A DNA stretch of 64,000 nt, taken from Fomitopsis serialis (taxonomy: Eukaryota > Basidiomycota > Agaricomycetes > Polyporales > Fomitopsidaceae). How positions within the stretch are numbered: the stretch's first letter is position 1; each line of letters opens with the position of its first letter. Positions 11,683 through 38,224 of this stretch are shown here, piece by piece. The stretch spans positions 1 through 64,000 of the forward strand of contig NW_025955069.1 in NCBI RefSeq assembly GCF_022376445.1, written 5' to 3'. The notes under the pieces are model-generated. The model was not told where the DNA came from. It saw nothing but the letters and a program-made list of their open reading frames with translations, and did no database searches. The position numbers were made by a program, and so were the translations under genes.

Positions 11683-13928
11683 ACCCGACGGTGACGATGT
11701 ACGTGCCGCCGCCGATGTAGACTCGGGTCTGAATGAGAAGACTACGGCGGGCAACTCGCCACTGCACTTCGTGCGCGCAGCCTCCTTCATCCTGACATTA
11801 GCCTTGTTCATTCACGAGTCCCTACGCGACGCCGCGCACCGCCTCGACCACACTGCGCGTCGAGCCGCGCTCGCCGTACCTCAAGCTCGGCATCTTCTCG
11901 ATGCTCGCAAGCGCATTCAGCCGAATGGACGGGCGACAATTTATTCGGACTTTGTGACGCTTTACCTGTTAAGTCGTGTGTGGATAGGCATGCATATATT
12001 ACACGTGTAGTCGTAAACCTCACGCGCATCGTACTTAGCTTGCGAGTACCCCGCCGTAGCGCGCGCAAGCGCCCGACCGCCGCCAACAACAAAGCGCTTT
12101 ATTTAACACTTCCCATTTAGAATAAAAGCTCGTGGAGGCATGTACAGGAAGACACAATAACAGAATGATCAATGAGATATAAAAAACGTACCTCGATGCC
12201 GTAGCTCGAACAGCCCAGACAGAGCCAGAGATACCAGCGCCTATTTCTCGCACTTTGCAAGACGAGAGGCAATTGCCACTTTGACGCTCTGCTGCAACCC
12301 CTTGACTCCTGACTACAACACACCCTGGCTACATCGTCACTCAAATCTCACACTCCGCGCTGCTCTTGTGGCGCTTTCGGGACGACCTCAGCCGACAGTG
12401 GCTCAACACCGTTTGAAGAGCCTGTGCCGACTCCCTACTGCGAACGTTCAAGTTCTCGCCCTACAAGACGCACCACCAACGCCTACTAGTACCTAACCTT
12501 CGCAATCAGCCCCTACACCATAGGCCAGCTCGTCATCCCCCATCCCATCGTATGGTGCATGCCGGTTGCTTTGGCCCCTCCGGGAGGCCGAGTGATTAGT
12601 GCTGTACCAATGAGGGGCCGCTGTACACTATATACCACCACCCATTGTGCAACTACAGCGACCACTAACCACAAATGCGGCGACACCTCTCTGGCAAGCT
12701 CACCAAAGGCCCGAGACGCAAGACGATACACATGGCGATCACGACCGCAGAGCCAACACCCTGTGCGCCGGCATAGCCAGCCAACGAACGAAGGGCAGCC
12801 GAGGTGAGTGCAGACGCGCGTGAACTGGTAACTGACAGCGAGCACAGGGCGCTGCGACGTGCAGCACCACACTGCTGCACATTGTAGATGACAACGGCGA
12901 GCACGCAGGCGCAGTTACGATCGGCGAGCGGTCCGCTCGCGCGTAACGGCATGTCAGGGCAAGCAGTGGACGGTGGGTAAGCGGCGGATGGCGGGCGAGC
13001 ATAGTAGCGAGGGCGAACACGAGCGAACGCCTTGCGTGAAAACACAGCCAGCGAGTAGACCGCGGGCGACGTGGCGTGTTCTTAGCCTGCTCCTCACCTC
13101 ATTCGTCCCCCGCCTTCGGCCTTGCCCGTTGCGGGCGAGCGCACGACTGGCTGAGCTGCATACTCCTCCGACCTCGAGCATCGCGGAAATCTCGGCGAAC
13201 TACAAGACCACCTTGACCGCGTGGAGCGTGCTGCTCGAGCCGGTCGTCACTAAAGTGCGGCGGCTCGCGCAAGCCGTTCGTCACCTCGCCAACCCGCTAG
13301 TCTCCTCAGGTCTCCCCGATCCCAACCGTGGGCCTCATGCGAGGCAGCCACGCCCAAACTTCGTGCAGGCCGCGTCGTCTCCCGCCAAAGCGGGCCGGGG
13401 CTGTGCTCGCCCCGCAGCCTTGCCACATGAGTGAGTCGGGCTTCGTCGCACTGATAGCCTTCGAGTCAGCGACCCTCCCTGGACTATCAAGCACCTCTCC
13501 TCGCGGCCACAGCCAGTACTGTTCCCGTACCTCTATCCCTGACGTCCTGGGTGTGCCCCTCGCGGTCGTCGCCCCATGGGACGACAACGCGTAGTGTCAT
13601 GCCTTTGACCATTACACTGCAGTCCTTATGTGTTTCCTACGACGCAAGCCTGCGCACATTCCCTACTCGGACGGCTACGGGGGCTGCAGCCTCCATCACG
13701 AGGCTTCAGTCACTCCGCAAGAAGGCAGAGGTAGCGTTGGGTATGATAACGGTCGAGGCAATGGCGTCGGCAATGACTGGGCTGCAATGACTGGGCGTGT
13801 GCTGGGCGTGGGGGCGATGCGGAAGGTTCAGGGCGGGAGCAGGTGGCACAGAAGGAGATGAACGTTGCCGCCGTGGCAGCACTACGAGTAATTAATCGAA
13901 CAACGAATATATTTACGGAAGCAGGTCA

Positions 13929-13968
13929 TTTACACGGATTTACACGGATTTACACGGATTTACACCCC
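13929..13968 (+). repeat. Subterminal tandem repeat of the Plavaka element
   Basis: The unit TTTACACGGA occurs three times in a row from 13929, followed by a degenerate fourth (TTTACACCCC). It starts about 125 bp from the right end. Subterminal repeats of this sort bind transposase in CACTA-group elements. Confidence 0.7.
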
Positions 13969-14036
13969 TTTGCAAGGTACTGGCGCCCGAAGTGGCGCGA
14001 CGCGGGTTTGGCGCGGATTTGCGCCACATTTGCATG

Positions 14037-14053
14037 GGGCGGGTTTCCTGATG
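14037..14053 (-). repeat. Right terminal inverted repeat of the Plavaka element
   Basis: GGGCGGGTTTCCTGATG is the complement of the left end with one mismatch. The CA at 14054-14055 is the duplicated target. Confidence 0.92.
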
Positions 14054-14055
14054 CA

Positions 14056-14117
14056 GTACCTCTTGAATAGAGACTGGGTGCAGCGCATACGAGGCACGAC
14101 GAGTAAGGCGTCTTACA
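14056..14117 (+). repeat. 5' LTR of the first element, right fragment
   Basis: These 62 bp match 20116-20177 of the 3' LTR and end GTCTTACA. The following bases (14118 on) read CTTTTTTGCGCTCCAG and lack the TGG start of a classic tRNA-primed binding site. Confidence 0.93.
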
Positions 14118-14238
14118 CTTTTTTGCGCTCCAGAAAAGCTTCTATTCTGGGGATTTTCTACTCTAGGCAACAACATCTCGAAACTCGAACTCTATGCTCT
14201 ATCAAACCCTCTAGTCGGCCCAGGAAGACCTCGACAGG

Positions 14239-17200
14239 ATGTCTGGATCGACAACCAACCCCTCCGAAGCAACCCGGAGCAACCGCGGAACCCGTAGTGG
14301 AACCCGCAGCAAGCTCAAGGCGTTGCGAGCGGAGATCAAGTCCAAGCTCGCCGCGAGCCAAGAGCGGCTCGAGCATACACTCGCCGAAGCCGCGGCGAGT
14401 CAGCAGCGGATTAATGCCGCGCTCGAAGAGTCCAAGCAGACCCGCAAGGATCTGATGGACGCCGTCGACGAGGCACTGTCGGCGGCGAGCAGCAGCAGTA
14501 GCGGCCGTTCATCGCGCGCGCAGACCGCTCGGACTGAGTCCTCCGACCAGGAGAACTCAGCCGGAGCACCCACGGAGCAGGCGCCGTCCGACCGTGAGGT
14601 CGAACACGCACTGGGCACAGAGCAGCCCGAGCCCACCGTTGGGTCTGCTCAGAGCCACCCGGAAACACTATCCCGGGCAGCTCCAGCCCAAGCAGCGAAG
14701 CCGGGCACCCTCCCGAAGGATGGTGCACGCGCCGAGTTCGACGACAGGCCTGGCGCCGAGCTCGAACCCGAACTGAGCGAGCGGTGCGTCGAGTCGACGC
14801 ATCTCCAGGTTCGGGAGGGTATAGGCACACAGTACTACAGTAGTAGTACTATGTACAGTGGAAGCGAGCCCACGCCCCTAGATACCCTCGTCGCGCGCTC
14901 AGAAATGAGCCGCGATACAAAAAATATATTGCCACTGTCGAACGACGTGCGCGCCACGACGAGCAGCCGGCTCGACGCGACGCGCGACGCGCTCAACGCT
15001 ACGAGCGTTGAGCGTCACGAGTCCGTGGCGAGCGCCCCGCGTGCTAGCGCCTACCGCACTACGCTCGACCGCCACCACCGACCCGCCGTTCTCGACCACC
15101 TCCACTCTCTGGGCAGCCACCTCGAGCGCCCGTCTGGCGAACCAGACGCGCGCGCCGTCCCAACGCGAGTGCGAACTCGTGTTTGCGACTGGCTGGCTGA
15201 CTTACCGCCAGTCCAGTCAGTGGCGACCGACCTGGTACCTCCCGGTACCAGATCGCCACTTCCTCCATCCCCGGCTCTTCACCTCTCCCCTCTTGCCTCT
15301 CGCCTCGACTTGGGTGGTCCCCTCCTCGAGTCCGATAACTCTGGCGACCGATACCGCGGCTCTGGCGACACGCAACCCAGCCACGCGACCCAGGACTTGA
15401 ACGACGCGCGTTCAAGTCCAACGCCGAGTAGCGAGACTGAGCGGACCATGGACAACGCAGATCGAGGAGAACGGAAGAAGGACAGGGGGCAGAGGAGTAG
15501 CGAGGATGAGGAGGGAACGCAGGGACAGAGGGAGGAAGGGTGCTGGGCGAGCAGGAAGCATGAGCCCGAAGGCTCGACCACCACAGGTACGTACTCACTG
15601 TACGTTCCTGCATCGCAGCCCCCGCTTCCCGTGCCCGTGCTAGCAGGCGTAGCGACGAACAAGAAGCTCGTCGTGCGCACTGCTAGCCACGAAGATGGCA
15701 ACTACGTCCCCAGGCACGACTGCGAAGTCGTACCTGATGTTCCGGGTGGTAGCACGCCCAAGGTGCTGCGGGACGACCTCCAGGTCGTACCCTCCATGCC
15801 CCCTGTATCCGCGCCAGTAGGCGTCTCGACGAACGTAAGGCTCGTCGTGCGCACTACTGGCCACGAATATGGCACTTCCGCCCACAGGTACAACTGCGAA
15901 GTCGTACCGGATGTCCCACGGGAGCTGCGGTACGACCCTGAGGTCGTACCCGGACCCTCCACTTTGCAAGGCAATACGACGGACGCGCAGTACTGCACGT
16001 CCGACGTGCCCCATAATTTCTCGACCGGATATCGAGTAGCGGATACGCCCCAGACGGACGTATCCGCCTCGATATCTCCCTCCTTGACGGTGCCCGCACA
16101 GGCAATCGTAGCGACGAACGTGAAGTTCGCCGCGCGCATTGCTAGCGATGGAGAGGGTACGATCGCGCCGCGGGGCGACCCAAGGATCGTACCCCCCACT
16201 CTGCAAGACGGAGCGCCGGTGTTAGAGGACGACCGCGAGGTCGTACTATTCATTTCGCAAGGCGGCACAACGGACCAGCAGCGATGCAGGTCCGATGTGC
16301 CCCATTCAACCTCGACTGGATGTGACGCGGTGTTCGCTGACTCCTCGTCGGCCAGTCGCATCGCGCACTCAACTGCGCCTCAAGACACCTTGCACATCCT
16401 CACGGAAGTACAGGCGTCCGACTGCTTCAGCACAGCTGAACCTCATTTGGTTCAGCTGGCCGAGCCATTGGACGACCCCGACGATCTCTCCCGCAACGCG
16501 CTCGATCCCGCAAGGGTTATGGCGAGCGACCCTCAGCGTATGACCTCTCCGCGAGAAGCTTGTACCGCCCTAACGGACGTGCAAACACAACTCCTTCGGG
16601 TATGCGCAGCTGAACCATCCACGGTTCAACTGGCAGATTCCCCGGACGACCCCACTTATGACCGACAGTCGTCTTGCCACGACGTCGACGCAGACGGCTG
16701 CCGAACCGTCACGCATGCGACCCAGGACGCACGTATCGCCCCAACGGCCGTGCGTCAGAGCGACCGTCCATGCGCAGCCGAACCGCACGCGGTTCAGCTG
16801 CTAGACCTCGGCACTGTCAGCAGCCACCAATCTCTCTGCGACCCCAGTGCTCCTGCGAACGCGCAGTCCGACGCTTGCGTATTCACAATGAACGCGCTAG
16901 CTCGAGATCGCGACTCGACTGCTGCACTACTGCCAGTGCAGCAGCCGGCGCTTACGGACCCCGACAGACCAGAACGGCATCCCGACCGTCAACCCGACGA
17001 GAACTTCACAGTTCTCGTCGAGGGCTCGCTCCTAGGGACCCCTACCCAACTCCCCATCGACTCCTTCGCGGCTCCCGACATCGGTGGCGACTACGAGAGG
17101 CACCACGAGTCGGAGGTCGCGCGCGCACTCCGGAGATCGAGTGCAGGACGGATGGCGGATCAGGCCGGGGACGAGGGGGACGTGGATGAGAGTGCAGAGA

Positions 17201-19746
17201 CAGAGGAGTCAGATGAGGAGGGTCTGGCAGAAGGAGGAGGGGAGGAAGGGTGCGGTGTAGGCGAAGGAGACGAACCTGCGAGCTCGAAAGACAGAGGTAC
17301 GTCCATGTCGGAGGTACCTCCCCCGCCTCTACCACCTCCTCCTACACCGCCACCACCACCCGTGACGACCACGACAACCAATGCGGTTATCGTGGCAGCC
17401 ACCACGCATGTCGACGGTATGATCGACCCATGGGGCGACCTACAGGTCGAGCCCAGCACGGACAGGCCGTGCGGGACGATCGGTGGGCGAGTGCGCTCGA
17501 CCGGCGTACCCAAAGTCCCTGCGACTCACACGCAGACGTCGGACTCTTCGTTCGACGCCTGTTTCGAGGAACCCGACAGTGACTCGAAAAGCGAGTACCT
17601 CACGGTACTCGCCCTGCCGTCACCACCCCCTGTTCCGATACCACCACCGATCGCGACCACCCCGAAGGTCGTCGCAATCGACACTGGTCCATCCACACCA
17701 CGGAGCGACATCGCAATCGCATCCGCTGGCACGCACGGCGGCGCGCCCGGGGTGCACACAGGCACTACCGGCGCGTCCCACCTCTCCGATACAGGTGTAG
17801 TACCGACATCAAGCATCAAGCTTGAGGTAGGTGCCGATGAGCACCCTCATGAGCAGTGCGAGTACCATAAGGTACTCAAGTCTCTGCCTGCGTCAAGTGC
17901 AGTGGGTGCCGCACAAGGACACGACATTTCTCCTGTCAAAGGCAAGTACCTCACGGTACTCGCCAGCTCACCTACTATAGTTGCAGTGTCACCGCCGTGT
18001 CACACTGCAACAGACCTCGACGAAGATACAGGCGAGCTCAATCCCGCGAATCGTGGCCAGTCAGCCGGTACGTCTACAAATGTAGACGTACGACGGACTG
18101 CACCCGGACCTGAATGGCGACCGTCGGGACGCTACGTGCTGCCGGCACGTCGCGTTCAGCAAGACCGACGCGATCTGGACGTGTACTTCGACGGCGAGCA
18201 CCAGCCCAAATACTGCGAAGTACTTGTTGCGTCTAGCGAACGAGACCGGGAGCTACCGCCGAGCACATCCAAGATGGATGTGCTGTTATCTTCCCTGGAC
18301 CCAGCACAGTCGAATGGATCGACGCGAACTGGCGGATCCACATCCGTGGCTCCAGGATCAGGGACACCTGGCGAGAACGAACCTTCGTTCTTGCGGATGC
18401 AAATGCCCAGTGCGTCGACTCGTGCGACTACTAGAGTGTCGCCGCGTGCCCAAACGGAGATGCGTTCCCGGGATCCATTGAAAGGTTTCCAGATCTATCT
18501 CGAGGGACTCAAAGCTCAGTCGATGCGAAGGCCGGAACCATTGGATTCAGGCGAACGGCGACGTTCATCTACAACTGATGGTACCAAGACCGAGCCGGCG
18601 CGAGCGCAAGGAGGAGCTACCTCCTCTACGAGGGGGGTTACTCTCTTGAGAGGGGAAGGGAGCGGGGCCTCGAGCAGCCACCGCTTGATCCACACCATGG
18701 CCAGTACACCACGCGAAGATGTACTGGTCCCGGATCCCCTAGTGACACGGATGTCAAGCCGTGAGCTCGACTTACGGGCCACCCATGGGAACTCGACGCG
18801 AAGATCAGGCAGTCGCACAGTGAGCCAGGGGTTCGACGTGCAGGATACCGTGCGAGTGGCCAGTACATCACATAGTGATGTACTGGAACTGGATGTAGTC
18901 ACAGGCCGTACGTCCAATGTCGACGTACGGGCTTCACGTCGAACATTGAGGCAGGTACCACCTGTACTGCATGCGTCGAGTGATCGAATCGAGGTGCAGG
19001 ATACTCGTGATCGTCGCAGCCGCGACATCACTTCGGAAACCAGTACCTCGCGCCACGAAGTACTGGGATTAAACCGAGTACCGACTGCACTGGGTCACCC
19101 AGTGACTGTCGACGTGAGTCGATGGCCCACGGATAAGGTGTCGCGTGAGGAGTGCTTCACCCTCCTTGCAGACCAGCTTGACCATGACTTCGACGAGGCT
19201 GATGTCGCGGCAAGTACTGGCGAGTGGGACATCTGGGCTCACTGCAAGAGGTCAGCCCTTAGCTGTGGGCAGGCCATCGAGGATATGTCCCCACGACCAG
19301 GGACATACTCTCGTGCAGCTTGTCGAGCATGGGACCACTTCCAGAGGGAGTTGGAAGTGGTTCCACTCGAGTTTGATCCTCGGCTCGTTGCACCACTTCC
19401 TATGGAGATGGTACGACATTGGGCCTACAACAAGCTGGGATGGCTTGTTGTACCACCTCGTCAACAACCAGTGGATGAGTCCGACTGGTACAACTCCTCT
19501 GATGAGGAGCCTCGTACCATGACTCGTGAGGAGTACCCTGACCATGTTGAGTCGGAGTATCCCTCCGAGTCCGAGCATCTTAGCTCGTGGGACTCACGAA
19601 GATCTGGGTCTGAGGAGACTAACTCGGTAGTAGTCTCTGACTACTACGAGCAGTCTGAGATGGAGGATACCCTTAGCTCTTCTGCACTATCTGCCGACGA
19701 TGAGGGTAACTCTGAAGATGCTGACTACTACTCCGAGTCCGAGTAG
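14239..19746 (+). CDS. 1835-residue protein of the non-autonomous LTR element, function unknown
   Basis: This single uninterrupted frame fills nearly all of the element interior; the start is the first ATG after the LTR. I do not recognise it. Residues 1-90 are basic, then a heptad-like helix (AEIKSKLAASQERLEHTLAE, QQRINAALEESKQTRKDLMD). The middle is long and disordered, built of degenerate repeats: blocks like VATNKKLVVRTASHEDG followed by DDLQVVPS, blocks AAEPHxVQLxD, blocks KSEYLTVLA, and a proline run near residue 1030. The last 230 residues look folded (REECFTLLADQLDHDFDEAD, AACRAWDHFQRELEVVPLEF) and end in an acidic tail. There is no zinc knuckle, protease, polymerase or integrase motif. 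Its DNA is studded with perfect inverted repeats. It may be a structural or targeting protein of the element, or a captured host gene. That the frame is free of stops over 5.5 kb argues that it is translated. Confidence 0.75.
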   Translation: MSGSTTNPSEATRSNRGTRSGTRSKLKALRAEIKSKLAASQERLEHTLAEAAASQQRINAALEESKQTRKDLMDAVDEALSAASSSSSGRSSRAQTARTESSDQENSAGAPTEQAPSDREVEHALGTEQPEPTVGSAQSHPETLSRAAPAQAAKPGTLPKDGARAEFDDRPGAELEPELSERCVESTHLQVREGIGTQYYSSSTMYSGSEPTPLDTLVARSEMSRDTKNILPLSNDVRATTSSRLDATRDALNATSVERHESVASAPRASAYRTTLDRHHRPAVLDHLHSLGSHLERPSGEPDARAVPTRVRTRVCDWLADLPPVQSVATDLVPPGTRSPLPPSPALHLSPLASRLDLGGPLLESDNSGDRYRGSGDTQPSHATQDLNDARSSPTPSSETERTMDNADRGERKKDRGQRSSEDEEGTQGQREEGCWASRKHEPEGSTTTGTYSLYVPASQPPLPVPVLAGVATNKKLVVRTASHEDGNYVPRHDCEVVPDVPGGSTPKVLRDDLQVVPSMPPVSAPVGVSTNVRLVVRTTGHEYGTSAHRYNCEVVPDVPRELRYDPEVVPGPSTLQGNTTDAQYCTSDVPHNFSTGYRVADTPQTDVSASISPSLTVPAQAIVATNVKFAARIASDGEGTIAPRGDPRIVPPTLQDGAPVLEDDREVVLFISQGGTTDQQRCRSDVPHSTSTGCDAVFADSSSASRIAHSTAPQDTLHILTEVQASDCFSTAEPHLVQLAEPLDDPDDLSRNALDPARVMASDPQRMTSPREACTALTDVQTQLLRVCAAEPSTVQLADSPDDPTYDRQSSCHDVDADGCRTVTHATQDARIAPTAVRQSDRPCAAEPHAVQLLDLGTVSSHQSLCDPSAPANAQSDACVFTMNALARDRDSTAALLPVQQPALTDPDRPERHPDRQPDENFTVLVEGSLLGTPTQLPIDSFAAPDIGGDYERHHESEVARALRRSSAGRMADQAGDEGDVDESAETEESDEEGLAEGGGEEGCGVGEGDEPASSKDRGTSMSEVPPPPLPPPPTPPPPPVTTTTTNAVIVAATTHVDGMIDPWGDLQVEPSTDRPCGTIGGRVRSTGVPKVPATHTQTSDSSFDACFEEPDSDSKSEYLTVLALPSPPPVPIPPPIATTPKVVAIDTGPSTPRSDIAIASAGTHGGAPGVHTGTTGASHLSDTGVVPTSSIKLEVGADEHPHEQCEYHKVLKSLPASSAVGAAQGHDISPVKGKYLTVLASSPTIVAVSPPCHTATDLDEDTGELNPANRGQSAGTSTNVDVRRTAPGPEWRPSGRYVLPARRVQQDRRDLDVYFDGEHQPKYCEVLVASSERDRELPPSTSKMDVLLSSLDPAQSNGSTRTGGSTSVAPGSGTPGENEPSFLRMQMPSASTRATTRVSPRAQTEMRSRDPLKGFQIYLEGLKAQSMRRPEPLDSGERRRSSTTDGTKTEPARAQGGATSSTRGVTLLRGEGSGASSSHRLIHTMASTPREDVLVPDPLVTRMSSRELDLRATHGNSTRRSGSRTVSQGFDVQDTVRVASTSHSDVLELDVVTGRTSNVDVRASRRTLRQVPPVLHASSDRIEVQDTRDRRSRDITSETSTSRHEVLGLNRVPTALGHPVTVDVSRWPTDKVSREECFTLLADQLDHDFDEADVAASTGEWDIWAHCKRSALSCGQAIEDMSPRPGTYSRAACRAWDHFQRELEVVPLEFDPRLVAPLPMEMVRHWAYNKLGWLVVPPRQQPVDESDWYNSSDEEPRTMTREEYPDHVESEYPSESEHLSSWDSRRSGSEETNSVVVSDYYEQSEMEDTLSSSALSADDEGNSEDADYYSESE
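14380..19647. repeat. Array of perfect short inverted repeats within the 1835-codon gene
   Basis: At least 25 hairpin-forming repeats are spread through the gene. Those with arms of 9 or more and loops of 8 or fewer are (arm/loop): 14990-15014 (11/3), 15393-15419 (10/7), 15929-15950 (9/4), 16433-16458, 16919-16944 and 16995-17020 (each 10/6), 17591-17612 (9/4), 18068-18091 (10/4), 18262-18284 (9/5), 18860-18886 (12/3), 18906-18930 (9/7), 19334-19361 (10/8), 19426-19452 (10/7) and 19627-19647 (9/3). A compound stem of 9 plus 9 pairs lies at 16028-16076. The stem sequences differ from one hairpin to the next, although GTAC cores are frequent. Confidence 0.88.
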
Positions 19747-19964
19747 TAGTTTACCTTATGGCCTGCATAACTTTGTCGAGTTATGTACGACAATGATGAA
19801 TGGTTGTGTCTGCTCACTGACGCAATCTAACATGTTGTTGTCTACAGTTCAACATCATCTTTGTTTGCCAACTGCTACCACCGGTGGGTTGTTGCATATG
19901 TCTCCTTTCATTTTCCTTTTTCTATCTGTTTCTCTGGTTATCGCTGGGACCCGTGGTCGTGTCC

Positions 19965-19976
19965 AGTGGGGGAGGG
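19965..19976 (+). other. Polypurine tract of the first LTR element
   Basis: AGTGGGGGAGGG directly precedes the 3' LTR, the position where plus-strand DNA synthesis is primed in LTR retroelements. Confidence 0.75.
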
Positions 19977-20177
19977 TGTAACGGATATTCCCGTTACGGT
20001 ATGTCTTACATTAAATGTTTGTCTTTGTTTGCTCGAGGACTCGTATGGCGCGCCAGTGCACCTACAAGTCCTCAGCCTTTACCTCGTCACCGCCTTTGTA
20101 TGCAATCTGTAGACAGTACCTCTTGAATAGAGACTGGGTGCAGCGCATACGAGGCACGACGAGTAAGGCGTCTTACA
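19977..20177 (+). repeat. 3' LTR of the first element (intact, 201 bp)
   Basis: Runs from TGTAACGG to GTCTTACA and gives the uninterrupted sequence that defines the empty site of the Plavaka insertion. Flanked on the right by TCTTG (20178-20182). Confidence 0.95.
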
Positions 20178-20182
20178 TCTTG

Positions 20183-22286
20183 GCTCAAGCTACTTGTCAT
20201 ACTTTAAGAGAACAGAAAATGCTGCATATCTGGACCTAGCTATCCAGACATTTCAGGAGTCTTTGGATTTATTACCTAATGAACACCCAATGAAAGTTGA
20301 TCAGCTATGCAATCTTGGAGGTGCATACTTGATGAAGTTCAAGCATCTTCATAATGTCTTAGACATTGACCACACAATCAGTGTGTTGCAGCAAGCAGTT
20401 GAGCATTCGCTACCAGGCACTTCTACTGCACTTTTGGCACAGATGCAGTTAGGTGAAGGTCACTATGAGAAGGCTATATACATGATCACCAGCCTGAATG
20501 ACAAATTTGCATATGTCCCAGAAATGAAAAATGCTATGAAGTTCCACAGATCAGCTGCTTGCTGTGATTATGGCTCTGCTTTATCCAGAATGGTAGCTGC
20601 CTGTAGATGGGCGGATGCTGCACAGAAGCTGGGAAATGGACAAGATGATTGTATAGCAGCATATGAGAGAGCTTTCACACTACTACCAGAAGTTGTTTGG
20701 TTAGGGAAGTCAGTAGCAAACCAGTATGCTGATCTGGCTAGGTGGAACACACTTGCAACTCAAGCAGCAAATATTGCAATTTATCTGGGACAATACCAAA
20801 GAGCTGTGGAATGGCTTGAACAAGGGAGATCTATCACATGGAATCAGCTCCTCCAGTTGCGCACCCCTCTTGATGAATTACAAAGTGCCCACCCAGTTCT
20901 CTCTGATGAACTCAAATCTGTGTTCCAACACCTTGAGATGCTGAGTCATGACAGAGAAAAGTCTGCTGTGCACAACCATATGACAATGGAACAGATTGGC
21001 CAGTTTCGCAGAAGGCTTGCCATGAGAAGGGATGAGCTGGTACAGGAAGTGAGAACTCTACCAGGATTCAAGGATTTTTTGAGGGCAAAGCCATTTTCTG
21101 AGCTCCTTGATGCTGCCAATGATTCACCAGTTATCTACTTGGTTCTGGATGATCATGCCTCATGTCATGCAGATGCACTTATATTGATGCCAGGCCAAAA
21201 TTCTGTGGTCAATCTGCACCTCAAGGGCTTGTCTAAGAAACAGATCCAGAGTATGCATGAGTCCTTGCAGACACACTTGGGTGGACAAACTGTGCGCAGT
21301 GCACAGAATGTTTCTGAACATGCTGCAAAGTTAGTTTCCATAAGTGGTTCCAATGTCTTGCATATGCATGACATACTCAGCCAACTGTGGAACAACATTG
21401 TCAATCCAATCATTCAAGCTCTAGAACTTCCAGTATGTGATATTCTTTTCATGCATAGTAGCCTTTAAAGCTGACATATTGGTTCTAGATTGTGACAGAC
21501 CACCCTCCCCCTCACATTTGGTGGTGCATGACAGGTCCCCTTACCTTCCTGCCAATACATGCTGCAGGGGACTATAGCATGGATGAGCCTGGCCATAAGA
21601 TATCTGACTACATGGTATCCTCATACACTCCAACTCTCACTGCATTAATCAAGGCTAGGCAGAAGGCTGCCAATCCTAGTCCAGCCATATTGGGCATCTG
21701 CCAAACTCAAGCTTTGGGCTATTCTGTGCTACCAGCAGTTGCCCAAGAGTGGAGTGGCATAGAAGACATAGCTGCCAAGACACACAGCAGCACAGATAGC
21801 CTGCATGACAGTGCTGCTACACTTGAGAATGTCTTAAGCAAGATGCAGACAGCCCAATGGGTGCACTTGGCTTGTCATGGGATTCAAGACTCTGAAAACT
21901 CCATAGAGAGTGCATTCATACTCCACAATGATGCTCTGAAGCTCTCTAGGATTGTTCAGCAGGACCTAGACCAAGCAGACTTTGCTTTCCTATCAGCATG
22001 CCAAACTGCCACAGGTAACATCAAGCTCTCTGACCAGGCAGTACACCTTGCTGCAGGCATGCTGTTTGCTGGGTTCAGGTCTGTCATAGCCACTATGTGG
22101 TCCATCAGAGACGAAGACGGGCCTGAGGTTGCTAGAGATGTCTATGCTCACCTGTTGGCTACCAAGGATAGCGAAGATGCTGCAGATGCCCTGCACATGG
22201 CTGTACAGAACCTCAGGAAGAAGTACCCTGGAACCGAGGACAAGGACATCCTAGCTTGGGCTCCGTTCATCCATATGGGCTGTTGA
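20183..22286 (+). CDS. TPR-CHAT protein, downstream part with the CHAT domain
   Basis: The frame of 1-925 resumes here with a further TPR-like unit (YLDLAIQTFQESLDLLPNEH), then a long helical linker. An intron at 21433-21488 (GTATGT to TTCTAG, phase 0) joins it to 21489-22286. The last 260 residues are a CHAT domain, a caspase-like cysteine protease fold. The presumed catalytic histidine lies in WVHLACHG and the cysteine in FLSACQTA, followed by LAAGMLFAGFRSVIATMW. Both catalytic motifs are intact. In prokaryotes TPR-CHAT proteins are proteases of immune or cell-death systems; in fungi their role is mostly unknown. In this haplotype this part is cut off from its promoter and N-terminus by the insertion. 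Confidence 0.85.
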
Positions 22287-30413: not shown

Positions 30414-30606
30414 TGTAAGGACGATGGTAAAGTAGTTTAGTCAGCGCCTTAGTCAGCGACCCGGAGTCCGCCGAAGGACCGTTTTATAGCTGACGCGCCC
30501 CGTTGCTCTCGTCGTCTTTTCCCCATCGTTGTACACCGCTCGCCCCTGCAATATACAGGCTTTGGCTAGCTCAGTACGGCGTCCGAGAAGACCTACACCC
30601 CTTACA
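30414..30606 (+). repeat. 5' LTR of the Ty3/Gypsy element
   Basis: Begins TGTAAGGAC and ends CCCCTTACA, with a 7-bp terminal inverted repeat (TGTAAGG/CCTTACA). A TATA-like TTTTATA lies at 30482-30488. The sequence after it (30607 on) is TCTTTTTGAGCTACCG, without the usual TGG of a tRNA primer site. Confidence 0.95.
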
Positions 30607-30719
30607 TCTTTTTGAGCTACCGACCTCGTTAAATCGAGGAGCCCCCTTACTCTCTCGCTTCACTCTCTCGCTTCCTTCTGCTTCACTCAACTCTCGCGCC
30701 ATCCATCTACCCCCAATCT

Positions 30720-33700
30720 ATGTCGACAACAACAACAAAGACCAAAACCAAAAGACGGACTCAACAGACTACTACTAGTCGACCCGTCACCCGCGCATCG
30801 AGCCGAGCTACGACGTATGCTCAGGGCAATATCCGGGACGTCGACGAGCGTCGTCCCGAGGACCAGGGCCCCGGTGAGCAAATGCCACCTCGCTCACCTA
30901 TCCCTGACGGTTCTGTTCGCAGAACCTCTTCGCCTCAGCACGTCGAGCAAGAGCTCGAGCACGAGCGCACACCACCCGCCCGCGCACTATCCCTGGAGCG
31001 CACACTACCCGCGGGCGCACCATCTCCTGCGCCCTCAGCTCGCTCCGAAACACGGCGCACGTCGGAGACCAGCATCCGTGACATGTGCCAAGACTTTTTC
31101 GACATGATCAACGACCGTCTCGAAGATTCGGACGAGGTCATCCGAAATGCGGCGAATTTCGCCAACACTGCCTTGCGTGACGTCATGGCAGCTCAGCAAC
31201 GAGCGGCCGAGACTCGCAACCTCACGCGGACGATGTTCCTGGACATCCGTAGACAACTGGACCGTCTTGGGTACGGACCAGCCGAAGAGGAAGACGAGGT
31301 ACGTGACGATGATCACGGACGCCATGCCTCTCCGCATTCTGTTGATAGCAGGCAACCATCGCCGCATATCCGCGATGACGACTACGTCGAGACCATGTCC
31401 CTCGACACTATGTTCGCGCCGAGGCGACCGAATGAATCCGACGCTCAATACGCCAACCGGGCCCGACGTCGGGATCAATTTCTGGACCGCCAAGGAATGG
31501 AGCAACGCCGACGCGAACGTGAAGCTCGCATCGCGCAGACCTGGCGCGAGGCTGCGGAACGACACGGAGGTGATCCGTACGCCAATCAGCAGGCCTACGC
31601 GCCGTACCCGGGTCCTCATGATGACGATGACGACCCGGGGGACGACTACGACGGTGACCCGCGCCAACCGTCGCCGCGAGACCCTAGGCCACCCCGAGAT
31701 CATCCAGATGCGGATGGTCAACGAGGTGGAGCCGCTCCGCCGCCACCTCCGCCACCTGGCGGACCACCCGATGGCGACGATGGAAGCAATGGGTCGGACG
31801 ATCGCGACGACGAGCAAGACCCTCAAGATGACGAGCAGGACGCGCGCGAGCCCCCGCGCCGAGATGAACGTCGCTTCACCCGTAGTCCCACATACTTAGC
31901 TGACCGACGTGTACCTTTGTACGATACACGCACTGGCAATAGACGAGTCCGTGACCCCTACGATCCGGACTACGATGACACTTTCAGAGCTGAAGGCCTT
32001 CGTATGATACGAAGGCTAGTCCGCGAAAAACTGTCTGAAAGCATGCCTGACAGCAATGCGCTCAAGAATATTAAGAACATACCCACACCCTCGCAGTACG
32101 ATGGTACTGACGACTACGAGCAGTTCGAAAACTGGCTCAAAAATTTACTTCGCTGGATGAGTCTCTTCCGTCTAGGTGGACCGACACTCGACAAAGAACG
32201 TTTGTATATACTTGGCCAGTTCTTGAAGGGAAAGGCTGCCGACTGGTATAACGATACCATCGATGCACCTACCGCGAACGGAAGGCCTTGGACGTTCCTT
32301 GAGGCACTCTGTGGTCTATTCGATAGATTCTTACACCATGCGACTGCCAGCACAGCAGCCGACAAGTTCTACGCTGCTAAATACACTAAAGAAGGTGGTA
32401 TTAACGGCCTCTGGGACTATCTCACGAAGTATGCGGCCCGTATGCCCATACCACCTGACGACTACACGTTCGCACGCGTGTTCACGGAGGCGCTTCCCAG
32501 CGACATCGGCGTGCCGCTGTTCCAGGCCAAAAACGTGTCCGTCGAGTCGACTCCTCTACAGCGACTCCGACGTCTTGCTCTGCAGCAAGAACACAACAAT
32601 AAGCAAGTCGCGGCCTACCGTTCAAAACACGCTGCGCGGGTTGCGACAACTATACCCAATACTGCAAGCAACCCTTCGACGCGAAGCACTGACCGTCGTG
32701 TCGAGTCGAACCATCGCGATAGCCGAGGGCAAAGTAGTGGCCAACAGGGCACTCGTAAGTTCATTCGTTTCGTTCGTCGCTCTGACCTCTTGGCTGCTGC
32801 AGCTCGCGGCGGAGGTGCGCCGCTGATTCGTCCTAAGGGACTGCAACAATCGTCTCAGCCGACCTCAAACATCCGTGGTGGTGTTGCACCTGCTTCGGGC
32901 AACCGTTCGTCAGGCCAGCAGGGTGCGTCGCACCAGTCTCATTCTCACGCACATGGCACTTCGCAGCACTCGCGCAAGTGCTTCAACTGTGGAGAAGAGG
33001 GACACTTCTCGAAGGACTGCCCTCATCCACCTCGCACAAACTTCCGTGCGGCGCGTATCGTCGATGATCGCGACGACCCCGACGCAAACGAGTCGGTCCT
33101 CCCGCCCGACAATCCTGTCGAGGCGCCCGAGGTGTCGCCGGATACAACGCCGGATGCTCCTTCATCTGCGGCCGAGGCAGCCAATGCCGATAACCAGGAC
33201 GAAGTACTCGCCCAGTTAGAGGACGAGTACCTCGCCATGGATGGATCGCAGTATGATCCTGATGAGTACATCATGATGGAGGATGCACTCGAGGATGATG
33301 ACAATGTCGTATACTACGGCTCAATGCGTCGCATCGAGGTTTCGCAGGTCGATAATGACTTGGTGGAGCACACCGAGACCTCACACGGAGACCATACGTC
33401 ATATGGGCTTCGTATCTTCCACATTCCTCGCGATGTTAGCACGCAGGACAGTGTCTTCGAGCTTGAGTGGCGCCGCGCGCTTAGTAATGGTGCTGACAAC
33501 ATCGACCTCGAGTCGATAGACAACGTTGCAGTGCGCGAGATCCTGCGTCGAGGCCCATCAATTGAAGCCGTCTCTGAACGCAGTGGTATAAGCTATGAAC
33601 ACATAGCCGAGGACTTCGTGGGACCTGCACCAGTGGACGCTGCAGTTGCCACTGGGTTAGGCGAGCCCGACGCCATGTCGATCTCTTCTGACGACTCGAT

Positions 33701-34664
33701 ACCATCTCTTGAAGAGATACCCGAGTCTGATCATGTTGTCCCGGACTTCACTGACGAAGAGACGTATGCTCTCGCGCTTACAGGCCGCTTGCGCACGCTG
33801 TGCCGCGAACTCCTTTGGACACGATACGAGCTGCTGCGCAGCCTCGAGCGCTACCGGCCAAGCGCAGAAGATCGCGAGCGCATTCGCAATCGACTGGACA
33901 ACCAAAACTGGTTGGTAGGTTCCATGAACATACCAGATTTATCTTACAACTATCTAGACGAGCCCTCGTTTGCCACGACCATTGCACTTGCCGAACAAGT
34001 GCTCAGAGAAGATGCAGACATGCATGACCCACCTCCGCCATACCCGGCATTACGAGCAATGCTGGCTCGTACTGGACGCATTCCCGACGCGCCCAACTCG
34101 AGTGTACAGCCCCTCGCAACACGTGCAACCGTGCGACGCGCTGTAACAGGTCGTCGACCCGACTTAACTCGGTATGACCAAACATGCCTTACCGCTTACC
34201 TGACAATCAACGGATTGCAGGCCTTAGTACTCCTCGACTCCGGAAGTACTACTGACTCCATAAGCCCCGACTTCGTGCGAGTCGCTGGTATCGAAGCTTT
34301 TGAACTCGAAAACCCGGCGATCCTTCAACTTGGCTGTGTCGGAAGCCGTTCACGCATCAACTACGGCGCGAACGTACCCGTGATCTGGGGTCAATTCAAA
34401 GGTGAGGTCTACTTCGATGTTGTGAATCTTGACCGCTACGATGCAGTGCTCGGCACACCGTTCATGCGGAAGTTCGGTGTATGCCTTGACTTCGCGAAGT
34501 CGGCAATCTGCATCGGAGACATTGCGATACCCGCATTGCTTCCGCGGGAGGAGGAGGACGCCGCAAATAGACGGCGACGTACCTTCCCTTCTCGCCGGAG
34601 TGTCACAAATACATCGCAGCAGACGCCTGCTCCGTCTGCGCCCCCGCCTAATCCCTCATATTGA
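30720..34664 (+). CDS. Gag-protease polyprotein of the Ty3/Gypsy element
   Basis: The frame of 1314 codons has a disordered basic and acidic N-terminus with a coiled-coil stretch (FDMINDRLEDSDEVIRNAAN). A retrotransposon gag core follows near residues 440-620 (PTPSQYDGTDDYEQFENWLK, LYILGQFLKGKAADWYNDTI), then a CCHC zinc knuckle (CFNCGEEGHFSKDC, about residue 755). An acidic linker follows, then an aspartic protease near the end (VLLDSGSTTDSISPDF and YDAVLGTPFMRKFG). Having the protease in the gag frame is common in this clade. The frame closes with UGA followed by CUAG, and pol continues in the same frame. The start is the first ATG after the LTR, 113 bases downstream. Confidence 0.93.
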   Translation: MSTTTTKTKTKRRTQQTTTSRPVTRASSRATTYAQGNIRDVDERRPEDQGPGEQMPPRSPIPDGSVRRTSSPQHVEQELEHERTPPARALSLERTLPAGAPSPAPSARSETRRTSETSIRDMCQDFFDMINDRLEDSDEVIRNAANFANTALRDVMAAQQRAAETRNLTRTMFLDIRRQLDRLGYGPAEEEDEVRDDDHGRHASPHSVDSRQPSPHIRDDDYVETMSLDTMFAPRRPNESDAQYANRARRRDQFLDRQGMEQRRREREARIAQTWREAAERHGGDPYANQQAYAPYPGPHDDDDDPGDDYDGDPRQPSPRDPRPPRDHPDADGQRGGAAPPPPPPPGGPPDGDDGSNGSDDRDDEQDPQDDEQDAREPPRRDERRFTRSPTYLADRRVPLYDTRTGNRRVRDPYDPDYDDTFRAEGLRMIRRLVREKLSESMPDSNALKNIKNIPTPSQYDGTDDYEQFENWLKNLLRWMSLFRLGGPTLDKERLYILGQFLKGKAADWYNDTIDAPTANGRPWTFLEALCGLFDRFLHHATASTAADKFYAAKYTKEGGINGLWDYLTKYAARMPIPPDDYTFARVFTEALPSDIGVPLFQAKNVSVESTPLQRLRRLALQQEHNNKQVAAYRSKHAARVATTIPNTASNPSTRSTDRRVESNHRDSRGQSSGQQGTRKFIRFVRRSDLLAAAARGGGAPLIRPKGLQQSSQPTSNIRGGVAPASGNRSSGQQGASHQSHSHAHGTSQHSRKCFNCGEEGHFSKDCPHPPRTNFRAARIVDDRDDPDANESVLPPDNPVEAPEVSPDTTPDAPSSAAEAANADNQDEVLAQLEDEYLAMDGSQYDPDEYIMMEDALEDDDNVVYYGSMRRIEVSQVDNDLVEHTETSHGDHTSYGLRIFHIPRDVSTQDSVFELEWRRALSNGADNIDLESIDNVAVREILRRGPSIEAVSERSGISYEHIAEDFVGPAPVDAAVATGLGEPDAMSISSDDSIPSLEEIPESDHVVPDFTDEETYALALTGRLRTLCRELLWTRYELLRSLERYRPSAEDRERIRNRLDNQNWLVGSMNIPDLSYNYLDEPSFATTIALAEQVLREDADMHDPPPPYPALRAMLARTGRIPDAPNSSVQPLATRATVRRAVTGRRPDLTRYDQTCLTAYLTINGLQALVLLDSGSTTDSISPDFVRVAGIEAFELENPAILQLGCVGSRSRINYGANVPVIWGQFKGEVYFDVVNLDRYDAVLGTPFMRKFGVCLDFAKSAICIGDIAIPALLPREEEDAANRRRRTFPSRRSVTNTSQQTPAPSAPPPNPSY

Positions 34665-34668
34665 CTAG
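34662..34668 (+). promoter_or_regulatory. Candidate stop-codon readthrough site (UGA CUAG) between gag and pol
   Basis: The gag frame stops at TGA (34662-34664), directly followed by CTAG, and the same frame stays open through pol. UGA-CUA is the best known readthrough context in animals and fungi (for example in peroxisomal isoforms of glycolytic enzymes). A fraction of ribosomes reading through would give the Gag-Pol fusion that such elements need. Reinitiation at the ATG at 34674 is the alternative. Confidence 0.6.
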
Positions 34669-34673
34669 CCGAG

Positions 34674-37600
34674 ATGGACAGTAGTGCGTCACCCGACCCA
34701 CTACAAACCGTCTCGTTCCACCGTATTACTGCTAATGAGTCAACTCCAGTTGCAGACGAAGCGCGCATCACACAGATCCGCGAGCAATTCATGACGAAAT
34801 ACGCTGAACTCTTCGGTCCAGTACCACCTGGACTACCCCCGGTACGAGAGGTCAATCACACTATACCCCTAGTTGATGACCGAAAACGGTACACTTACTA
34901 TCTACCTAAGTGCCCAGACTCTCTCAAGCCCAAATTGCTCGAGAAGATACAGCTCTACACCGCCAATGGCTGGTGGAAAGAGTGCCAGACAGAGCAAGCA
35001 GCACCAATGCTCTGCCTCGCGAAGAAAGACGGCGGACTACGCACCGTCACAGACGTTCGCCAGCGCAATGCGAACACCATCAAGGATGTAACGCCTTTTC
35101 CGGATCAAGACCAGATCCGGAATGACGTTGCCCGCGCTCGATACCGCTCGAAGATCGACATGTCAAACGCCTATGAACAGGTGTTAGTAGAACCGAAGGA
35201 CGTCCACAAGACCGCCTTCGCGACGATCTATGGTACGTTCTACAGCCTTGTTATGCAACAAGGGGATGCGAACGCCCCGTCTACGTTCCAACGCCTCATG
35301 ACATCGATCTTCCGCGATGCCATAGGGATATTTGTCCATGTTTATCTGGACGATATTTTTGTCTTTTCAGACACTCTCGAAGACCACGAGAGACACCTTG
35401 AATGGGTTTTCAAGAGGCTTCGTGAAAATCGACTGTACCTCAGTGTCAACAAATGCGCATTATTTGCGAGACGAGTTGACTGCCTCGGACACATCATTGA
35501 CGAGAAAGGACTCCATGCAGATACTGACAAAATGGCCCGAGTTCGCAACTGGCCTGTACCTCGGAACTACCATGAAGTACAGCGCTTTCTCGGCCTTGTG
35601 CAGTATCTCGCTCACTTCATGCCTAACCTCGCAGCATACACAGGTCCAATTTCGAGCATCACACGAAATGGCCAGTCATTCGACTGGCGACCTATTCATC
35701 AAAAGTGCTTTGACGAAATCAAGGCACTCGCGTGTAAGACACCCATCCTACGACCAATCGATCCTAGGAATTCCGACCCCATTTGGGTCATTACTGATGC
35801 ATCTACATCAGGAGTCGGTGCTGTATATGGCCAGGGCCCTCAGTGGGACAACTGCCGCCCGGCTGGCTTCATGTCGAAGAAGTTCACGTCCGCGCAGCAC
35901 GCGTACTTCACTTACGAGATGGAGGCCCTAGGCGTCCTCGAAGCACTCCTTAAATGGGAAGACAAACTGATCGGACGACATTTCAAGATCGTCACTGACC
36001 ATCGCGCGCTCGTCTTCATACAAGACAAGCGGAAGCTCGCGCCACGACTCGAGCGTTGGACGGAATACCTCAGTCGTTTTGACTTTGAGATTGTGTACGT
36101 CCAAGGCTCCAAGAACCTTGTCGCTGATTCATTCTCTCGCTACTTCTCTAGTGAGGGCGCCGACGTGTTACACGAGCCACAGGACTATGTCTCCGCGGAC
36201 ATAAGGATCGATCCCTACGGTGAGACACTTTCTGATGCTCGACTCGCAGAGATCCGAGCTCAGCGTGTTGTTGAACACGTCGAGCCTCGAGTTCGCGAAG
36301 CCGAGGAGCTTGCGGCTCACTACCCGCAAGGCCCTGATGCGTCCGACTCGGACGCAGACTCATCATCCGTTCAGGACGACCCAACCGCAATTGATTCCGC
36401 AATTGCCGGACCACCGCTCGACACGGTTGTCCAGCAAACCCTCGACCTGCAAGATACCGTGCGATCTGGCTATGCCAATGATCGTTTATTCAAGGCCATT
36501 ATGGACCACCCCGAGGATCACCGTATGTTCCTCGTACATGACGAGTTGCTTTGGTACAAGCCACACCCAGAAACTGAGGTATTATGCATACCTCGAGTCA
36601 AGGTACGTCGTCGACTACTACCTGAAATTATCCTCGACGAGGCGCATACTGCGCTCGGGCATCTGGGTACCCGACGGACGTCGGACTACGTCCGGCGATG
36701 GTACTGGTGGCCCAACATTGGCAAGGACATAGCCGCATTTTGCGCGAGCTGTAGCACCTGTCAGATGTCCAAATTTTCGCGCCAGAAGCCCACTGGACTG
36801 CTACATAGCATGCCTATCCCATTGCGACCTTGGCAGTCTGTTGGGATGGATTTCGTCGGCCCATTCCCCTCGTCACGAGGCTTTGATTACCTATGGGTAA
36901 TTATATGCCGACTGACTTCACACCTGCATCTGATTCCTGTTACGACTCGAGTACGAGCTTCCGAGCTCGCCTGGCTCTACTTCAAGGAAGTAGTCAGATT
37001 ACATGGTCTTCCGGAGTCCATAGTTTCGGACCGAGACCCCAAATTCACGTCGAAGTTCTGGAATGAACTTCATCGACTCATGGGTAATAAGTTACTCATG
37101 TCGACTGCATTTCATCCACAGACTGACGGCGTCTCGGAACGTGCTATCCAGACCATTTCGCAAATTCTGCGAAGCGTTGTTCGACCTGATCAGACCGACT
37201 GGGTCGACCGCCTACCCCTTGTCGAGTTTGCGATCAACTCGAGTGTCAATGCCTCGACCGGGTTCGCACCATTCGAGCTCACCTACGGATACATGCCCCG
37301 GATCATGCGCACGCTCGAAAACACGCCCGCGATGCCCGGAGTACGAGCATTTGCCGACCGCGCAGTCGAAAATCTGCTGATTGCCCATGACGCAATCATC
37401 GAGTCGCGCGTCACTCAGACGACGCATGCGAACCGTCGCCGACGCGCCGACAACCCTAATGGTGATGACCAACCTCGATACGAGGTTGGCAAACTCGTCT
37501 ACTTAAGTACTCACAATCTATCCCTACCGAAAGGACGAGCTAACAAGCTCGCCCCACGCTATGTAGGCCCCTACCAGATTGTCAGGGCACACCCCGACAC

Positions 37601-37988
37601 GTCAAACTACACACTGGAGCTGCCGGATGTGTTGCGGAAACGTCGCATTCACCCGACCTTCCATGCGTCGCTCCTTCGGCCTCATCAGCCGAATGACGAC
37701 ACCATGTTCCCGGGCCGAGACGTAACAAAATTTTACGACTTCGGACTCGACGGTGAACAGGAATACCTAGTCGATGAGATCCTCACTCATCGCTGGGTCA
37801 GTCGACGTATTGAGTTCCTGGTACGTTTTGACGATGGCGACATCCTCTGGGAGTCATATGATAACTGCAAGGATCTTGAAGCTCTTGACAGGTATCTCGA
37901 GCTACAAGGTATCTCGGACTGGCGAGAGCTGCCGCGACATACTGGACCCGACCGCCACGCGCGAAGATCAATGCGCCCTGGCGGGTGA
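34674..37988 (+). CDS. Pol polyprotein of the Ty3/Gypsy element
   Basis: The frame of 1104 residues has a reverse transcriptase (CLAKKDGGLRTVTDVRQRN, active-site VYLDDIFVFSDTLEDH), RNase H (WVITDASTSGVGAVYGQG, EALLKWEDKLIGRHFKIVTD) and integrase. The integrase shows the HHCC zinc-binding region (HTALGHLG, CASCSTCQ) and the D, D, E residues in GMDFVGPF, IVSDRDPKFTSKFW and HPQTDGVSERAIQ. The C-terminus (YLVDEILTHRWVSRRIEFLV, WESYDNCKDLEALDRYLELQ) looks like a chromodomain, which guides integration to modified chromatin in chromoviruses. No frameshift or internal stop is seen. It lies in the gag frame, 9 bases beyond the gag stop codon. Confidence 0.95.
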   Translation: MDSSASPDPLQTVSFHRITANESTPVADEARITQIREQFMTKYAELFGPVPPGLPPVREVNHTIPLVDDRKRYTYYLPKCPDSLKPKLLEKIQLYTANGWWKECQTEQAAPMLCLAKKDGGLRTVTDVRQRNANTIKDVTPFPDQDQIRNDVARARYRSKIDMSNAYEQVLVEPKDVHKTAFATIYGTFYSLVMQQGDANAPSTFQRLMTSIFRDAIGIFVHVYLDDIFVFSDTLEDHERHLEWVFKRLRENRLYLSVNKCALFARRVDCLGHIIDEKGLHADTDKMARVRNWPVPRNYHEVQRFLGLVQYLAHFMPNLAAYTGPISSITRNGQSFDWRPIHQKCFDEIKALACKTPILRPIDPRNSDPIWVITDASTSGVGAVYGQGPQWDNCRPAGFMSKKFTSAQHAYFTYEMEALGVLEALLKWEDKLIGRHFKIVTDHRALVFIQDKRKLAPRLERWTEYLSRFDFEIVYVQGSKNLVADSFSRYFSSEGADVLHEPQDYVSADIRIDPYGETLSDARLAEIRAQRVVEHVEPRVREAEELAAHYPQGPDASDSDADSSSVQDDPTAIDSAIAGPPLDTVVQQTLDLQDTVRSGYANDRLFKAIMDHPEDHRMFLVHDELLWYKPHPETEVLCIPRVKVRRRLLPEIILDEAHTALGHLGTRRTSDYVRRWYWWPNIGKDIAAFCASCSTCQMSKFSRQKPTGLLHSMPIPLRPWQSVGMDFVGPFPSSRGFDYLWVIICRLTSHLHLIPVTTRVRASELAWLYFKEVVRLHGLPESIVSDRDPKFTSKFWNELHRLMGNKLLMSTAFHPQTDGVSERAIQTISQILRSVVRPDQTDWVDRLPLVEFAINSSVNASTGFAPFELTYGYMPRIMRTLENTPAMPGVRAFADRAVENLLIAHDAIIESRVTQTTHANRRRRADNPNGDDQPRYEVGKLVYLSTHNLSLPKGRANKLAPRYVGPYQIVRAHPDTSNYTLELPDVLRKRRIHPTFHASLLRPHQPNDDTMFPGRDVTKFYDFGLDGEQEYLVDEILTHRWVSRRIEFLVRFDDGDILWESYDNCKDLEALDRYLELQGISDWRELPRHTGPDRHARRSMRPGG

Positions 37989-38224
37989 TAGTTCCACTAT
38001 CTAGATCGGCGACTGACTCGCCGGAGTCGCCGCCCAACACCCCATTACCTGACGACCAACATTCGCCAGAAACTCTTTGAACTCGCGTCGAACATTCGCG
38101 ACTATCCCGCCGTGAAACTTGTACGCCGACGCGATGCCTATTAAAGTGCACGCCGCCATCACGCCGTGCTCACCAAACCATCTAATTGCTCAACTGTGCG
38201 TGCTCTACCCTCGCCTCTTTTACT

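Follow-up and report, generated by a model that had tools for sequence, protein, structure and literature searches.

The coding sequence of a young LTR retrotransposon in Fomitopsis serialis is filled with perfect short hairpins, whose arms evolve slowly and covary. We consider it probable, with room for considerable doubt, that in this helper-dependent element the coding sequence has a second job, as stem-loops kept by selection on pairing. The evidence comprises an excess of stems, their hairpin geometry, the slow and covarying arms, a profile of arm divergence that is flat across codon positions, and simulations in which arm-copying leaves the arms unslowed. The element lies in the window, the whole 64,000-nucleotide stretch of DNA that was analysed, and has the following parts:

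14054 to 20177, forward strand: copy of a non-autonomous LTR retrotransposon with truncated 5' LTR (direct repeat 14054-14117/20114-20177, 64 nt, 100%)
14054 to 14117, forward strand: remnant of the 5' LTR, its 3' part (direct repeat; comparison with copy L009)
14118 to 14133, forward strand: primer-site-like stretch CTTTTTTGCGCTCCAG, directly after the LTR (the same stretch in the nine copies displayed)
14239 to 19746, forward strand: single ORF of 1835 aa that bears the hairpins, with no Pfam match (ORF scan, Pfam)
19967 to 19976, forward strand: polypurine tract before the 3' LTR (sequence; similar in six other copies displayed)
19977 to 20177, forward strand: 3' LTR, TGTAACGG...TTACA (sequence, LTR comparison)

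In the 66-Mb assembly (806 contigs), the gene product matches at least 86 places (26 of the 572 candidates scored), one of which, on contig C335, is a gene copy at 99-100%; a relative is also encoded by Rhodofomes roseus. Our comparison set consists of 23 loci, the window copy and 22 fetched ones. An LTR pair of 194-212 bp, 97.5-100% identical, is present at 18 of the 23, the window copy having its 64-nt remnant, and the near-identical copy L009 carries two LTRs of 203 bp; no LTR pair was found in the fetched stretches of L020, L026, L029 and L030. LTR matches lie 5.5-6.2 kb apart in 17 pairs, which account for 34 of the 40 scored (82 candidates), with further matches beyond the fetched loci on C516, C476, C598, C44, C717 and C153. 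Clean 5-bp target duplications flank L022 (GGTAC) and L024 (TACCT), with both alignments ending on the LTR boundaries. A Pfam search of the window ORF and of the long ORFs of L029 and L030 gave no domain above cut-off, including reverse transcriptase and integrase. Taken together, the LTR pairs, the paired LTR matches, the target duplications and the lack of a reverse transcriptase domain identify a young non-autonomous LTR retrotransposon; the first-pass annotation had called it a non-autonomous LTR element, and this is borne out by LTR pairs in 18 of the 22 fetched loci. Internal stops are absent from eight copies that were chosen because their frame is open; others carry frameshifts or stops.

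Some further observations concern the element and its surroundings. Tandem 10-bp repeats, ATTTACACGG, occupy 13928-13977 upstream of the truncated 5' LTR. An ORF at 20194-21468, with weak TPR matches below cut-off, begins directly after the 3' LTR, and the element may thus have landed inside a gene. The 3' LTR has one 7-bp stem at its 5' end, a stem seen in the L024 LTRs. L029 and L030 are distant copies with many repeated DDLxVVP-like modules and open frames of more than 2100 codons. L010 and L014 are near-identical in the C-terminal 290 codons outside stems (dN 0.002, dS 0.013) and differ elsewhere (dN 0.102, dS 0.168), which makes the copies look like mosaics from recombination.

The first-pass annotation had counted 14 perfect inverted repeats with arms of 9-12 bases, and a program finds exactly 14 in 14239-19746 with arms of at least 9 and loops of 3-8. 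The means in shuffled sequences are 0.22 for dinucleotide, 0.41 for synonymous-codon and 0.11 for codon-order shuffles (100 each; maximum 3), so that none of the three kinds yields a similar number of stems. With arms of at least 8 and loops of 3-12, the gene has 21 stems versus 0.9-1.8 in shuffles. The stems below were located by the inverted-repeat search, with other evidence in brackets:

14379 to 14400, forward strand: stem of 8 bp, loop 6
14831 to 14850, forward strand: stem of 8 bp, loop 4 (13-bp version in other copies)
14990 to 15014, forward strand: stem of 11 bp, loop 3
15232 to 15251, forward strand: stem of 8 bp, loop 4 (arm of at least 8 at this site in 12 of 14 copies)
15393 to 15419, forward strand: stem of 11 bp, loop 5
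15929 to 15950, forward strand: stem of 9 bp, loop 4, encoding RYDPEVVP (motif list)
16028 to 16076, forward strand: compound stem of 9+9 bp with a 2-nt bulge (sequence)
16433 to 16458, forward strand: stem of 10 bp, loop 6, encoding TAEPHLVQL
16919 to 16944, forward strand: stem of 10 bp, loop 6
16995 to 17020, forward strand: stem of 11 bp, loop 4, with two compensated arm versions (13 of 14 copies)
17591 to 17612, forward strand: stem of 9 bp, loop 4, encoding EYLTVLA (copies)
17980 to 18011, forward strand: stem of 10 bp, loop 12
18068 to 18091, forward strand: stem of 10 bp, loop 4 (copies)
18262 to 18284, forward strand: stem of 10 bp, loop 3, with three compensated arm versions among copies (copies)
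18701 to 18727, forward strand: stem of 8 bp, loop 11
18860 to 18886, forward strand: stem of 12 bp, loop 3
18906 to 18930, forward strand: stem of 9 bp, loop 7
19284 to 19307, forward strand: stem of 8 bp, loop 8
19334 to 19361, forward strand: stem of 10 bp, loop 8
19426 to 19452, forward strand: stem of 10 bp, loop 7
19627 to 19647, forward strand: stem of 9 bp, loop 3

As had been proposed from the letters, the stems are spread over the whole gene and differ in sequence, the compound stem exists (16028-16036 pairs with 16068-16076, and 16039-16047 with 16059-16067), and the motifs DDxxVVP, AEPxxVQL and EYLTVLA are present in the translation. It is complementarity that recurs, the arm sequences being arbitrary; a single repeated motif as the cause is rejected, since stem sequences differ. 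All 23 loci share the excess, with 521 stems (arms of at least 8, loops 3-12) versus 21.7 expected from ten dinucleotide shuffles each; locus by locus there are 10-30 stems versus 0.2-1.6, and each locus exceeds its shuffles. In L024, stems with arms of at least 6 number 10, 11, 14 and 12 in successive quarters of the ORF, and the untranslated regions of that copy (371 nt) have no stems, which counts against the selection reading.

The geometry of the stems was analysed in a non-redundant set of 14 copies, from which nine near-duplicates (L009, L012, L016, L022, L024, L025, L027, L028 and L030) had been dropped; the same set served for arm rates, the long-loop control, column-pair covariation, Watson-Crick double and single changes and mispairs within sequences. 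Observed versus expected counts are 6 versus 2.3 at loop length 0, 43 versus 3.3 at 1-2, 27 versus 1.0 at 3, 117 versus 2.0 at 4, 59 versus 2.0 at 5-6, 53 versus 1.0 at 7-8 and 40 versus 4.3 at 9-12. Enrichment thus peaks at 58-fold at loop 4, is 27-53-fold at loops 3-8 and 9-fold at 9-12, and falls to 2-3-fold beyond. Among 175 distinct hairpins the loop is closed by C-G in 95, A-T in 37, T-A in 27 and G-C in 16, and among 76 site-loop combinations 13 tetraloops are of GNRA type and 9 of its reverse complement. These loop lengths, closing pairs and tetraloops are what a folded hairpin would favour, symmetrically between strands. In the 22-copy alignment used for tetraloops, arm 4-mers, loop inversions and mispairs (L009 alone omitted), arms at 71 sites tend towards ACC..loop..GGT next to the loop, and their commonest 4-mer is GTAC. 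Folding of the sense strand against dinucleotide shuffles, a control that had been suggested for the RNA, gives energies 5.7-6.3 kcal/mol per 90-nt window below the shuffled ones, over the whole length and in five of five copies; in the five copies tried the local gain is about equal on both strands. An Rfam search of 13900-20200 returned no match at E<=1.

A weaker excess of the same geometry is present in a second LTR element of the window:

30414 to 40140, forward strand: autonomous gypsy element with gag-protease, pol and a third ORF (domain, LTR and stem searches)

Its 194-bp LTRs are identical. As a candidate helper, it has the ends TGTAA..TTACA in common with the non-autonomous element and a similar primer-site stretch (CTTTTTTGCGCTCCAG resembles CTTTTTGAGCTACCG of the gypsy), but its LTR looks different; gypsy proteins have no clear relation to the gene product (BLASTP without composition correction, best E 0.017). 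With arms of at least 7 and loops of 3-12 the gypsy has 33 stems versus 4.6, and with arms of at least 6 and loops of 3-8 it has 58 versus 14.8, for comparison with 40 versus 8.8 in the gene. Its stems peak at loop 4 (14 versus 1.7). All three ORFs exceed synonymous shuffles at arms of at least 6 and of at least 7, the former counts being 21 versus 6.9 for gag-protease, 25 versus 5.2 for pol and 9 versus 2.2 for the third ORF (38186-39673), which lies downstream of pol, is hairpin-rich and has no Pfam match. At arms of at least 8, gag-protease has no excess (1 versus 0.5). Outside the two LTR elements, four stretches of the window, one of them with a Plavaka gene, give 56 stems versus 66 expected at arms of at least 6 and loops of 3-8, and the 1.5 kb upstream of the element gives 4 versus 2.7. 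Elsewhere in the genome we compared three gypsy, three copia and two Plavaka loci out of about a hundred matches each: at arms of at least 6 and loops of 3-8 the counts are 33 versus 17.9 in gypsy, 25 versus 19.1 in copia and 6 versus 8.6 in Plavaka, with 3 versus 0.8 at arms of at least 7 in one of the Plavaka loci.

We next consider whether the arms are held by the protein or by pairing. For arm rates, two copies were compared at stems that had been called in a more distant third one, as a guard against picking effects. Divergence between the two is 0.074 in arms, 0.184 in loops, 0.150 in 15-nt flanks and 0.168 elsewhere, an arm/rest ratio of 0.44. The long-loop control, 310 inverted repeats whose loops span 20-200 and whose arms lie clear of any short-loop stem, diverges at 0.171 and is not slowed. 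Copies for the codon-position and dN/dS figures were chosen for intactness (seven and eight, respectively). Across codon positions 1, 2 and 3, arm divergence is flat at 0.065, 0.057 and 0.065 (seven intact of the 14 copies). Outside stems, dN/dS is 0.60-0.70 in eight pairs of intact copies, which means that most of the protein is loosely constrained, with this exception:

18877 to 19746, forward strand: C-terminal 290 codons, with clear protein-level constraint (dN/dS 0.15-0.28, 8 pairs)

In six of the eight pairs the dS of stem codons is below that of other non-C-terminal codons, and in two it is above. Searching PDB sequences gave no match for the gene product (best E 0.58), and AlphaFold modelled the C-terminal 295 residues poorly (mean pLDDT 44.4). 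That the stems are a by-product of the protein, repeated peptides such as DDxxVVP happening to have complementary codons, strikes us as very improbable. Recurrent motifs and duplicated modules speak for it, yet shuffles that keep the protein and exchange synonymous codons take the count from 14 to 0.41, which refutes a protein by-product as sole cause; the equal conservation of arms at all three codon positions and the loose constraint outside the C-terminus also argue against it. Furthermore, every codon phase is represented among the hairpin centres (22, 12 and 7 of 41 sites in seven intact copies), unevenly, the favoured phase being that in which third positions are paired with third positions. 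Within the DDxxVV module a synonymous base covaries with its partner (62/4 versus 2/4 of 74 instances; Fisher P 0.0009, the instances coming from copies that are not independent), although the outer pair and one inner pair show no covariation, a point in favour of the protein.

Arm substitutions are in fact compensated in other copies, a possibility raised by the first-pass annotation, as is seen both in the compensated arm versions listed above and in covarying column pairs. Among 396 column pairs preselected as Watson-Crick in at least three copies, 35 have changed both bases from one Watson-Crick pair to another, versus 5-15 when the partner is slid by 1-6. The paired share of these columns is 0.909 versus 0.17-0.32 slid, a figure that is partly so by construction because of the preselection; the double-change count is thus the fairer one. 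Counted pairwise, double changes in short-loop stems number 1030 versus 211 under independence. Long-loop controls have 1331 versus 924, and part of the pairwise excess is therefore relatedness or module shuffling. The ratio of Watson-Crick double to single changes is 740/2790, or 0.27.

Slow, covarying arms could reflect selection on pairing, or the stems could be made by template switching, in which a near-palindrome lets the nascent strand fold back during DNA or cDNA synthesis and use its own arm as template, a mutational perfection without function. We regard the latter as quite unlikely to be the explanation. In yeast genes it leaves short spacers and perfect arms, homogenises the arms and inverts spacers (PMC8604942; quasi-palindrome template switching is also the subject of PMC3820800), and the stems here resemble this footprint in their short spacers, perfect arms and occasional spacer inversion in coding sequence. 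Mispairs without sense-strand preference also agree with it. To compare directions rather than to fit, we used simple simulations (8 tips, symmetric tree), with arm-copying taken from the first simulation only and selection from an origin-fixation model, since the first run had compensation entered by hand. First of all, the arm/outside ratio is about 1 under simulated neutral evolution and 1.0-1.1 under neutral arm-copying, which leaves the arms unslowed against the 0.44 observed, whereas origin-fixation selection on pairing at moderate strength gives 0.40-0.41. Second, arm-copying produces 3-10 double changes per single change, far from the observed 0.27; selection gives 0.10 at moderate strength and 0.07-0.18 over all selection-only simulations, and is thus exceeded by the observed value, which counts in favour of template switching. 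Third, we polarised recent stem differences by outgroup at a local identity of at least 0.88 in 15 copies (the 14 and L022). Among 99 such differences, gains of perfection comprise 20 single-base and 0 multi-base changes, and losses 42 single-base and 11 multi-base; 26 could not be polarised. No multi-base conversion of an arm to a perfect stem therefore occurs among the 73 polarised differences, 16 multi-base ones being among those without polarity. Fourth, exact loop inversions, at 3 of 119 loop pairs (including a 5-nt AATGC/GCATT; reversed-only 0, complement-only 0), would be expected of template switching, yet they exceed shuffled loops only weakly (3 versus 1.05, P 0.089). Finally, the excess is seen in retroelements and not in the four other window stretches, and arms are slow rather than neutral with no resolved recent multi-base conversion, all of which sets these stems apart from the yeast quasi-palindromes (PMC8604942). 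The suggestion that the stems are scars of template switching hence leaves the slow arms unexplained. Selection on pairing fits better than neutral arm-copying by template switching, and neither fits fully: when its strength is set to match the arm rate, the selection simulation retains only 11-14 of 30 planted stems, and this loss, together with the excess of double changes, means that some arm-copying may act alongside selection.

Which molecule is read is addressed by the mispairs. In otherwise perfect stems of the 22 copies, single mispairs are G.T in 51 cases, A.C in 78 and other in 56, with 16 double; within sequences there are 49 G.T and 132 A.C, versus 2.7 and 6.0 expected. Intermediates at compensated pairs are A.C only in 11, G.T only in 4, both in 4, none in 14 and of transversion type in 2. 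At fitting strength, a simulated sense RNA that tolerates G.U gives G.T to A.C at 3.4 to 1, and strand-blind pairing about 1.1 to 1. That G.T is not preferred over A.C argues against a plain sense-RNA structure, and the pattern favours pairing that is strand-blind, leaning weakly towards the complementary strand. Given this pattern and the equal folding gain, we do not claim the mRNA fold as the selected state. Of the roles suggested earlier, a structure in the genomic RNA stands as a possibility, although the lack of a G.U preference speaks against its simple form. Protein-binding sites in DNA would leave unexplained the covariation of arbitrary sequences at variable spacing, and dimeric DNA-binding sites were rejected as arm sequences are arbitrary and spacings run from 3 to 12. 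A strand-blind DNA structure, with selection acting on hairpins or cruciforms that the stems form in the element's DNA, whether single- or double-stranded and whether cDNA or integrated copy, would accord with the mispairs, with the folding gain on both strands, with GNRA tetraloops and their reverse complement being similarly frequent, and with the strand-blind simulation. It is nevertheless unlikely in our view: arms of 8-13 bp are short for cruciform extrusion in chromatin, and we know of no LTR replication step that needs such structures. On the whole, the first-pass annotation is partly supported: the non-autonomous element and the complementarity are borne out, the test that it proposed for compensated arms came out positive, and template-switch scars and DNA protein-binding sites fall short as explanations.

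Returning to selection on pairing, some 20-30 short perfect stem-loops would be kept for their base pairing rather than for the protein, and this selection would be what slows the arms. The stems would probably work in cis, on the single-stranded genome of the element that carries them, either the RNA or its cDNA. An element without enzymes must have its packaging and copying supplied by a helper, and the stems would most likely serve in the folding, packaging or copying of the genome by an autonomous element, through its Gag and reverse transcriptase. Spread over the whole genome, they might be recognised by Gag, make the genome more compact or aid reverse transcription. The graded hairpins of the autonomous gypsy fit a requirement that both elements share. 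More tentatively, and with a small chance of being right, the LTR retrotransposons of this fungus may be under selection for packing perfect hairpins into their coding sequence, the hairpins being read strand-blind as cDNA or DNA and not as mRNA; most of the protein of the helper-dependent element would then amount to hardly more than an open frame in which the hairpins are housed.

Structures within coding sequence have received much attention in RNA viruses and, to our knowledge, little in LTR retrotransposons. Non-autonomous LTR elements with a large body go by the names LARD and TR-GAG; the present element resembles them in its LTR pairs, polypurine tract, target duplications and lack of pol, and differs in its hairpin-bearing ORF, which runs to about 1800 codons and belongs to no known family. 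Among the open PMC papers searched by title and start of abstract, no retroelement gene of such a kind was found. In Ty1, paired regions of the LTR RNA are needed and compensatory rescue has been demonstrated (PMC5454406). The helper-dependent mini-Ty1 is likewise an LTR RNA mobilised by a helper; however, the Ty1 structures studied sit in the 5' leader, whereas the stems here run throughout 5.5 kb of coding sequence (PMC5454406). In GORS viruses, many small stem-loops cover the coding sequence, with excess folding energy and with paired sites less diverse than unpaired ones (PMC7642675). The scale is similar here, with folding energy well below shuffled along the whole length; on the other hand, pairings in those viruses are poorly conserved, while here the same pairings persist between copies and covary, in a fungal LTR element with perfect stems, equal gain on both strands and no G.T preference (PMC7642675).

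What makes this system valuable is that the effect is very strong and that one genome offers about two dozen natural variants, covariation and a graded version in an autonomous element. The packaging and copying of an enzyme-less parasite becomes testable by breaking and re-pairing single stems, and the mispair pattern raises the question whether selection sees RNA at all. For this element, the findings suggest that a coding sequence doubles as a structural molecule.
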